In this document: positions 29,461 to 31,930 of the stretch, piece after piece
Layout: every line of letters begins with the position of its first letter
Position numbering within the stretch: the stretch's first letter is position 1
Assembly: GCA_900315605.1 (NCBI GenBank)
Contig: OMZU01000016.1
Span: 1-43,999 of the forward strand
DNA: 43,999 bases
Reading direction: 5' to 3'
Source of the DNA: an uncultured Eubacteriales bacterium
GTDB lineage: Bacteria > Bacillota > Clostridia > Oscillospirales > Acutalibacteraceae
Position numbers and translations under genes: made by a program
Notes under the pieces: model-generated
Seen by the model: only the letters and a program-made list of their open reading frames with translations
The model's database searches: none
Told to the model about the DNA's origin: nothing

Positions 29461-29623
29461 TTAATACTAATCTCAGATAAAAAATGGACAAAGATTTGCG
29501 AGGATATTTTTCGCAAGACGAGGCGAAGGACGCCGCAAGGCTGTCGCCTTGCAAGGACAACAACGAAGTATTGCGGAAAATAGACCGCAAAGATTGTCTA
29601 TTTTTTATTTGAGTTTAGTATAA
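29461..29623. repeat. 163-bp palindromic MITE-like element
   Basis: Left arm 29461-29520 and right arm about 29564-29623 are imperfect reverse complements over about 60 bases. Both carry the A-tract, GACAA and CTTTGCG/ATTTGCG blocks and TATTTTTCGCAA-like segments. The 43-base centre contains a further GGCGA/TCGCC hairpin. It encodes nothing and fills the space between trpA and pyrH. Because the arms begin and end with A/T tracts it could also act as a bidirectional terminator. Confidence 0.8.
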
Positions 29624-29632
29624 GTGCTTTTC

Positions 29633-30397
29633 TTAGTGTATCGTGCTGAGCTCTTTGATAAACAAGCCGATCTCCTTTGGAGCATTTTTGCCGTAGCTTT
29701 CGAGCCGCTCAACGATTGCGGAATCCACAACAACACCGTCGGATATTTCCGTTAGTCTCTCCGAATTCATATTTGAAAGGCTTTGTCCGGCGACAACACA
29801 AGGAATATCTGTATATTTTCTCGCGGTGCGAACAGTTTCTTCAAGCCCGGAATGTAAAATTCTTCTGTCGGTCTCTCCTATATCTGCGGAAACAAACAGA
29901 AAACCCTCTGCATTTTCGGCGATCATCGGTATTCTGTCGCCGGAGGTCGGAGCTACGGCTGAAATCAGGTCAACGCCGTATTTTTCGCAAAACGGCAGGA
30001 ACTCTTCTTTTTCTTCAAACGGCAAATCCTCAACAAAAAGTCCGTCCACCCCGGCTTCGCCGCAGGCAGAAATGAATTTTTCGGAACCGTAAGAGAACAC
30101 CACATTTGCATATGCAGAAAAGACCATTGGTATGCTTGTTTTTGCTCTGAGTTTTTTTACAAGCGAAAGTATATCCGCGGTTTTCACTCCGCCCTTTAAT
30201 GCTCTGATATTGGAAGCCTGGATCGCCGGAGCTTCTGCGGTCGGATCGGAAAAGGGGATCCCGAGTACAACCATTGCCGCGCCGTTCTTTTCGGCTTCGA
30301 TAACCGCCGCTTCTGTGGTCTCCAGGTCGGGATCTCCGCAGGTTATAAACGGGATGAAAGCTTTTCCGCTGTTTAAAGCTGCTTTGATTTTACTCAT
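29633..30397 (-). CDS. trpA: Tryptophan synthase alpha-like subunit, catalytically degenerate
   Basis: TrpA normally cleaves indole-3-glycerol phosphate and passes indole to TrpB. The 254-residue product aligns along its length ([41 protein letters not shown]). However, the catalytic Glu49 (E. coli numbering; ELGxPFSDP) is Val44 here ([10 protein letters not shown]), and the residue at the Asp60 position is Glu55. The phosphate-binding loops are also lost: GVTG is GETD (174-177), GFGIS is AGQSL (203-207), and the GS of the last motif is DS (225-226). It likely cannot use indoleglycerol phosphate and may only activate TrpB. The start overlaps the trpB stop by eight bases. Confidence 0.9.
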
Positions 30398-31580
30398 GGA
30401 TATCCTCCCCTCTGTATCGCGCGATTGCCGCGCAGTCCTTGTCGCCTCTGCCCGAAACGGTGATAACGATTATTTTGTCCTTTTCAAGCTGCGGCGCAAG
30501 CTTGATTGCATGAGCGATCGCGTGAGAAGATTCGATCGCGGGGATGATCCCTTCGGTTCTCGAAAGATACTCAAAGGCGTTCACAGCCTCGTCGTCGGTA
30601 ATCGCAACATACTCGGCTCTGCCGATATCATACAGATGCGCGTGCTCGGGTCCGACTCCCGGATAATCAAGACCTGCCGAGATCGAATAAACAGGAGCGA
30701 TCTGTCCGTCCTCGTCCTGACAGAAGTACGACTTCATTCCGTGGAAGATTCCCCGCCTGCCGGTCGAGATCGTCGCAGCAGTTTCAAAGGTGTCTATGCC
30801 CCTGCCTGCCGCCTCGCAGCCGATAAGTCGAACTCCCTCGTCGCCGATAAAATGATAAAAGCTTCCTATTGCGTTTGAGCCGCCGCCGACGCAAGCGATA
30901 ACAGCATCGGGAAGTCTGCCCTCTTTTTCAAGCATTTGCTCCTTGATCTCCTTAGAGATCACCGCCTGAAAATCGCGGACGATCGTTGGGAACGGGTGCG
31001 GACCCATAACAGAGCCAAGGCAGTAATGAGTGTCGCTGATGCGACCTGCCCACTCTCTCATAGCCTCGGAAACCGCGTCCTTAAGCGTTGCCGTGCCCGA
31101 AGTGACCGGAACAACGGTCGCGCCCAAAAGCCTCATTCTGTACACATTCAGAGCCTGACGGATCGTGTCCTCCTTGCCCATAAACACAACACATTCAAGT
31201 CCCATCAGCGCGGCGGCGGTTGCAGTTGCAACGCCGTGCTGACCTGCTCCTGTTTCGGCGATAAGCCTAGTCTTGCCCATCTTCTTGGCAAGCAAAGCCT
31301 GACCGAGAACGTTGTTGATTTTATGCGCGCCGGTGTGGTTAAGATCCTCGCGCTTCAAATAAATCTTTGCGCCGCCGAGATCCTTTGTCATTTTTTCGGC
31401 ATAATAAAGGCGCGACGGTCTGCCGGCATAGTTATTAAAAAGCTCGCTTAGCTCGCGGTTAAATTCCGGGTCGTTTTTATAATGATTATAAGCCTCTTCA
31501 AGTTCAATTACTGCATTCATCAGCGTTTCTGGGATATACTGACCGCCGTGAATACCAAAGCGTCCGTTTGGGTTAGTCAT
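30390..31580 (-). CDS. trpB: Tryptophan synthase beta subunit
   Basis: TrpB is the PLP enzyme joining indole and serine to give tryptophan. The 396-residue protein is of the TrpB1 type, with the PLP-lysine motif [10 protein letters not shown], catalytic Glu in [11 protein letters not shown], the COMM domain region [12 protein letters not shown] and the phosphate-binding GGGSNAIG, all intact. ATG 31580 follows AAAGGAAAG at good spacing; the frame is open six codons further upstream. It is the first gene after a Trp T-box. No trpE, G, D, C or F is present nearby. Confidence 0.97.
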
Positions 31581-31640
31581 AATAATCTTTCCTTTCATTA
31601 ATTGAGGTACATCCTGTGGATTTTCTGTAGAGCAAAAAAG

Positions 31641-31930
31641 AAAAAACGCCCTTGACAGAATTATCGGATTCTGTCAAGGACGATAAAGTGCATAACACTC
31701 TCCGCGGTGCCACCTTGATTCACGGCAAAGCCGTGCGCTTAGCAGGATACTTCATATCCCCGGCAAATAACGTCTGCCTGCAACGTCGCAGAATACTCCG
31801 GAAAATTCCGTTTGACTGCGCCCTCAGCGGTCCATTTGACAATGTGTTTCTCACCTGACTCTCAGCTTCGCAGGCTCTCTGTAGAGGCGTCATTGCCTTT
31901 ATCTCCGCGTCAACGGTTTGATTGATTTTC
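31641..31930 (-). promoter_or_regulatory. Tryptophan T-box riboswitch with terminator
   Basis: On the minus strand the leader of trpBA has all T-box parts. Stem I contains AATGGACC with a UGG (Trp) specifier at 31832-31834. The conserved T-box AAGGTGGCACCGCGGA lies at 31701-31716. The terminator is CCTTGACAGAAT (31668-31679 read in reverse) pairing with ATTCTGTCAAGG (31650-31661) around a 6-base loop, followed by GCG and six Ts (31641-31646). Uncharged tRNA-Trp would stabilise the antiterminator and switch trpBA on. Confidence 0.95.

Follow-up and report, generated by a model that had tools for sequence, protein, structure and literature searches.

Among the textbook examples of allostery is tryptophan synthase, in which catalysis by the α-subunit (TrpA) and the activation that α confers on the β-subunit (TrpB) are hard to separate. 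The closest described relative of the system reported here is the TrpA of Chlamydia trachomatis, encoded in trpRBA, which was reportedly studied by Michalska et al. in 2021. As portrayed in the parts of the literature drawn on here, this protein cannot use indoleglycerol phosphate, is specified by a reduced trpBA operon and activates TrpB for the use of outside indole: TrpB activity rises four-fold with the impaired TrpA (PMC9378776), and TrpB is inactive without full-length TrpA (PMC6635532). The likeness drawn here is to that published description rather than to residues, and activation in the present case is predicted. C. trachomatis is one pathogen lineage, whereas the TrpAs considered below come from several lineages of gut Clostridia, in which the catalytic glutamate and the phosphate motifs have been lost and T-box-like leaders occur.

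Three further comparisons are useful. In the cited portion of a study of plants, one subunit of tryptophan synthase likewise has a dead paralogue, a TSB-like pseudoenzyme, that is kept to activate the other subunit (PMC12727527); this is a mirror image of the present case, since the dead plant β activates α to release indole, whereas here a dead α would activate β to consume it. Among human gut genomes, a TrpAB-only variant (A1) comprises 14 of 2856 genomes that have TrpA and TrpB as their sole tryptophan enzymes and are listed as needing tryptophan or indole precursors; these share the TrpAB-only state, the comparison being one of enzyme content, as the cited part of that survey does not comment on TrpA residues (PMC9026213). 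Stand-alone TrpB, or TrpB2, likewise serves indole salvage without α catalysis, but the TrpB described below differs in being canonical and having a TrpA partner, and the TrpB2 of the same genome is a separate gene.

The window, i.e. the whole stretch of 43,999 nucleotides that was analysed, is one of the 93 contigs (C57) of a genome of 2.42 Mb; the genomes compared are drafts. On its minus strand lies a reduced trpBA pair, with neither trpC nor trpF beside it. The first gene, trpB (30390..31598), encodes a canonical TrpB of 402 amino acids that, as a preliminary description of this DNA had said, looks intact: K87, E109, S377 and the COMM-domain residues K167 and R175 are all there. It scores 654.3 bits against the trpB profile and 190.6 bits against trpB_rel (TIGR01415, cut-off 518.85), and is thus not of the TrpB2 type. 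Overlapping the end of trpB by 8 bases is the open frame of trpA2 (29633..30397), which encodes a degenerate α-subunit of 254 amino acids. Directly 3' of trpA2, at 29471-29620, is a 150-base element predicted to form one long hairpin (-65.5 kcal/mol); a 91% copy (L067:14146-14284) occurs elsewhere in genome G057, the nearest relative to have the trpBA locus, and the element therefore looks mobile.

Upstream of the pair, at 31673..31922 on the minus strand, is a T-box-like leader that matches RF00230 with 81.7 bits (E 3.8e-18), a score under the gathering score of 93, so that it is not reported at the gathering threshold. It carries GGTGGCACCGCG and, at the specifier position, TGG, which by the T-box specifier rule we take to be the tryptophan codon. 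A closely similar leader (92.6 bits), which can be aligned with that of the window, precedes trpE in the same genome and also has TGG at the specifier position. Among 27 distinct loci for which the upstream sequence reaches 400 bases or more, a T-box motif was found before trpB in 16, with AAATGG(A/G)CC in 15 of these 16, and a motif search found none in the other 11.

That the remainder of TrpA2 is TrpA-like, as first claimed, is borne out by 203.6 bits against the TIGR00262 trpA profile (cut-off 102.35) and 202.3 bits against PF00290 (cut-off 27). Residues are numbered here by E. coli K-12 TrpA, in whose fetched sequence residues 49 and 60 were verified to be E and D. The preliminary description had placed Val44 of TrpA2 at the position of the essential Glu49, and the alignment to the K-12 protein does the same (E49V). 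Its other replacements, GVTG to GETD, GFGIS to AGQSL and GS to DS in the phosphate-binding motifs, are also those of the alignment, in which 60 of 60 intact TrpAs of the family keep E49, G184, G213, G234 and S235. The TrpA of G057 (L008), 93% identical to TrpA2, shares the motif changes and has isoleucine at position 49; they are therefore no sequencing slip.

A displaced catalytic glutamate was also looked for in the alignment, as the preliminary description had proposed. There is none adjoining position 49 in TrpA2, although glutamates do occupy two active-site columns. At position 129, which we take to be a member of the active-site pocket, TrpA2 and L008 have Glu where the second, intact TrpA of the window's genome (TrpA1) and all 60 intact family rows have Pro. 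The column of the second catalytic acid, 60, holds E and not D in TrpA2, as it does in 60/60 intact family rows. Loop 2 is present in TrpA2, as are Y102, N104, D130 and P132, which are assumed here to be TrpA positions at the TrpB interface.

Outside the view of the preliminary description lay both TrpA1 and the recurrence of degenerate TrpA in other Clostridia. TrpA1 has all four motifs intact and is encoded by the last gene of a trpE-G-D-C-F-A operon with its own T-box-like leader, on contig C66 (L066:5146-10435). The operon has no trpB, and none was matched in the 18 kb fetched around it; the relatives fetched usually have trpF-trpB-trpA in this order, and in four other genomes with both kinds of TrpA (L112-L115) trpB is inside the operon. 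The upstream pathway has thus not been lost and an intact TrpA stands alongside the degenerate one, in both respects unlike the C. trachomatis type. The trpB of the window is the sole canonical TrpB gene found in the genome, a separate TrpB2-type gene lying on contig C71, and in a quick TrpB tree its product groups, with modest support, with the operon TrpBs of the genus. By gene content, this single TrpB would have to pair with both TrpA1 and TrpA2, two alphas for one beta. With TrpC and TrpA1 both encoded, salvage is not the only route to tryptophan in this genome, which also has the TrpB2, an enzyme that may not need TrpA. Identities to a genus relative (L010) are 83% for TrpA1, 92% for TrpB and 58% for TrpA2, which therefore appears to have run ahead.

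A foreign origin of contig C66 was made less likely by matches of 81-96% between its parts upstream of the operon and two contigs of G057 (C107 and C33). It would be unsafe to conclude that G057 itself is without the pathway, as one of its contigs starts within trpE, behind a leader of the same type; the operon of G057 may sit in an assembly gap. Contig C66 also carries, at L066:15004-15108, a repeat of about 105 bases of which some 30 or more copies (96-100%) lie on G057 contigs and, upstream of the trp operon (L066:11029-14368), two similar genes that, judged by eye, presumably encode serpins with a dockerin-like N-terminal part.

The recurrence of such TrpAs was followed in two ways. A pattern for TrpA loop-2 DNA with a non-Glu codon was scanned against 84,980 species genomes and gave 38 stretches, of which 33 are TrpA; L084, L087, L090, L098 and L099 match the pattern but are not TrpA. 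Most of the 33 (28, one of them titled only Bacillota) come from records titled Clostridia or members of that class, and the remainder from Bipolaricaulota, Fructobacillus, Chloroflexi, Erysipelotrichaceae and Bacteroidales. A TrpB match accompanies 32 of the 33, and 30 have no TrpF or TrpC match within the same stretch. Two records titled Ruminococcus have a TrpG-like gene upstream of the bare trpBA pair (L076:5748 and L105:4582). In the Bacteroidales trp operon (L107, around 6796), the first residue of the TrpA match is 45; the frame is open but has no usual start.

An unselected sample of 100 genus and 250 family genomes provided 150 TrpA loci and 142 complete proteins. Of these, 132 are intact and 10 have lost at least two of the four motifs; none has lost exactly one. 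Five of the ten (L213, L222, L226, L149 and L156) lack the phosphate motifs and keep Glu49. All ten degenerate TrpAs are in bare trpBA pairs, versus 6 of 123 usable intact ones (Fisher 2.4e-11), where a bare pair is one with no trpF, C, D, E or G match in the fetched flank, which for degenerate rows extends only 0.25-0.5 kb above trpB. On a quick TrpB tree with many weak branches, 19 changes of TrpA state are counted, at least 4 of them forced by starred branches. Related gut bacteria have apparently come to the degenerate state on several occasions, and the homologue alignment called for in the preliminary description thus finds the changes of TrpA2 in L008 and the degenerate state again in other Clostridia. 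No report of a dead TrpA in Clostridia was found among the literature matches listed, as judged from titles and the openings of abstracts.

What the degenerate proteins have kept was assessed column by column in 125 intact and 31 chosen degenerate rows, with L187-L198 and cut rows excluded. Of 72 positions at least 95% fixed in the intact TrpAs, 31 stay at or above 90% in the degenerate rows, 17 are at 50% or below and 24 are intermediate. The lost columns include E49, V63, T158 and strand 6-8 positions around the phosphate site; loop 6 counts are unsure owing to alignment gaps. The kept columns include Y102, N104, D130, P132, E134, E135 and loop 2 (P53-E60), but also E60, F22, T24 and barrel positions off the TrpB side, so that part of the retained conservation may reflect stability of the fold. 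Loop 2, Y102, N104, D130 and P132 are fixed in 31/31 degenerate rows, for loop 2 partly by construction, since the scan pattern demands PFSDPxA(D/E). Loops 2 and 6 of TrpA contact the COMM domain of TrpB, according to the one section cited here (section 4.2 of PMC6608616). The TrpB partners of the degenerate TrpAs have K87, E109, S377 and K167 in 33/33 cases and R175 in 30/33.

Could the old pocket have been put to a new use, catalytic or ligand-sensing, with a ligand such as indole or a phosphate-free compound, in a TrpA2 that still docks on TrpB? We consider this improbable. The presence of Glu129 and the retention of E60, F22 and T24 would fit such a role, and the I, V, L or A found at position 49 in the 26 of 31 degenerate rows that have no Glu there would suit an open hydrophobic pocket, though the rarity of polar residues there is partly built in by a scan pattern that excludes codons with A in second place. 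Against it, Glu129 is confined to TrpA2 and its G057 orthologue, 2 of the 36 degenerate rows aligned with the 60 intact family TrpAs (these 36 include the repeats L034=L083 and L064=L075, the outliers L073, L077, L086, L107 and L110, and the cut rows L085 and L108). The phosphate-loop replacements also vary among lineages, with no common strand 6-8 replacement motif discernible by eye. Given Glu129, some other chemistry in TrpA2 may be conceivable.

The variety of those replacements could equally be expected if TrpA2 were an idle, decaying relic carried downstream of a selected trpB, and other observations lean the same way. Degenerate TrpAs have changed faster than their own TrpBs, with dN/dS of 0.11-0.17 versus 0.026-0.030 at L092, L103 and L104. 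Two loci bear decay-like signs: the TrpA of genome G275 keeps Glu49 but has its last third in another frame, with no adjoining TrpB match (L124:1504-2261), and in the second trpBA locus of genome G064 (L231:1483-2046) all that remains of trpB is an early segment, overlapped by a late segment of trpA, which is how an internal deletion, or else a misassembly, would look. TrpA2 itself, however, is under purifying selection: between the window's genome (G000) and G057, 17 of 254 residues differ, the frame is open in both species, and dN/dS is 0.062, compared with 0.043 for TrpB of the same pair. Values for intact TrpAs are 0.063-0.096 in four diverged pairs, and 0.16 and 0.29 in two that show hardly any changes; six further degenerate pairs lie at 0.08-0.20, three of the nine degenerate pairs being saturated. 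The degenerate TrpAs are looser than TrpB, yet far from neutral, and the 31 positions that stay fixed across 31 degenerate rows also speak against a relic.

The distribution of TrpB types bears on the same point. Of the 250 family genomes, 80 carry a TrpB close to that of the window (67-100% identical), and every one of these also has a TrpA match; a divergent TrpB (43-57%) occurs in 62, of which 58 lack both a close TrpB and any match to TrpA. In the family sample the close type is never alone, even where TrpA is degenerate, and the divergent type is. These 58 genomes indicate that trpA can be lost when its product is not required by TrpB, and the TrpB of G275, with its two-frame TrpA, is of the divergent type. 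An example of the divergent type, a candidate TrpA-free TrpB, is found at G103:C19:27374-28519. Taken together, we regard the idle relic as quite unlikely.

The enzymes that supply indoleglycerol phosphate are mostly absent from genomes with a degenerate TrpA. Of 36 genomes tested, 7 have TrpC, and the proportion is 7 of 32 once three repeats and G275 are removed (it is absent from 25 of 32 distinct genomes with E49 lost; G275 is left out of these counts as its Glu is present and its TrpA is in two frames). TrpD scores over the cut-off in 7/34 genomes, or 6/32 without G275 and Fructobacillus, and is absent from 26/32. All six E49-loss genomes with TrpD have a second TrpA with Glu49 (that of G438 with a stop inside the match), and the 26 without TrpD have one TrpA each over the cut-off. 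In the unselected sample, TrpC is found in none of the 8 genomes whose sole TrpA is a complete but degenerate protein (G057, G024, G213, G030, G093, G038, G130 and G134, of which G057 may be a false absence), versus 30 of 32 intact control genomes (Fisher 5.9e-7). These controls were chosen by hand and include 6 intact bare pairs; the two without TrpC (G023 and G073) have TrpA at a contig end. G096, with a cut TrpA and Gln49, has no TrpC, and G094 and G064 have TrpC plus a TrpA with Glu49.

There are counter-examples. G437 has TrpC and a single TrpA with E49 lost, and Fructobacillus pseudoficulneus (L077/G439) has Ala49 in its only TrpA, yet has TrpD and a trp operon. The latter TrpA (L077:2559-3326) has its other motifs present, and trpF matches there in two pieces. 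Most bacteria with a degenerate TrpA nevertheless seem, from their gene content, unable to make indole themselves. TrpB2, which may not need TrpA and may share the work of salvage, is found in 22 of 38 degenerate-TrpA genomes. That TrpA2 still cleaves indoleglycerol phosphate by way of a displaced acid is extremely improbable, for although Glu129 (its pocket membership being our assumption) and Glu60 stand at active-site columns, the phosphate-binding motifs are altered, an intact TrpA1 is available for the reaction, and the eight sample genomes with only a degenerate TrpA have no TrpC.

The explanation that we favor, and hold to be probable, is that TrpA2 is a non-catalytic α-subunit, retained because it activates TrpB in the salvage of indole. 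The pseudoenzyme reading, already put forward in the preliminary description and here supported at the level of sequence, draws on the residue losses, the retained surface, purifying selection, the intact TrpB, the recurrence of bare pairs, the frequent absence of TrpC and the lack of any close TrpB without TrpA; the overlap of trpB and trpA2, the T-box-like leader and the association with missing TrpC and TrpD support it further. The trpB-trpA2 pair would serve as a tryptophan synthase for indole salvage, which a T-box responding to tRNA-Trp would switch on when the cell is starved of tryptophan. TrpB would carry out the β chemistry (indole + serine to tryptophan), and TrpA2 would neither bind nor cleave indoleglycerol phosphate. 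We infer that TrpA2, lacking α activity, docks on TrpB and holds it in an active state, which would be why it is kept, and that under tryptophan shortage it supports the β reaction on indole from outside.

A more far-reaching proposal, which we consider possible but doubtful, is that the repeated gutting of α in gut Clostridia, with loop 6 and the phosphate site dismantled and Glu49 made hydrophobic, would turn it into an always-open port and activator for outside indole. One TrpB would then swap between TrpA1 for de novo synthesis and TrpA2 for salvage, both behind tRNA-Trp T-boxes, so that the α partner would set the source of indole.

It appears, then, that nature has repeatedly removed α catalysis and, by the pattern of conservation, kept activation. 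With several natural proteins of independent origin, the degenerate set could be used to map which features of its partner TrpB requires. The window's genome adds a TrpB that would be common to a live and a dead α, and the type of TrpB that stands without TrpA in the family provides a natural contrast. For these bacteria at large, a bare trpBA pair with a degenerate TrpA, in most cases accompanied by the loss of TrpC, may serve as a genomic marker for gut species that are likely to live on the indole of their neighbours.
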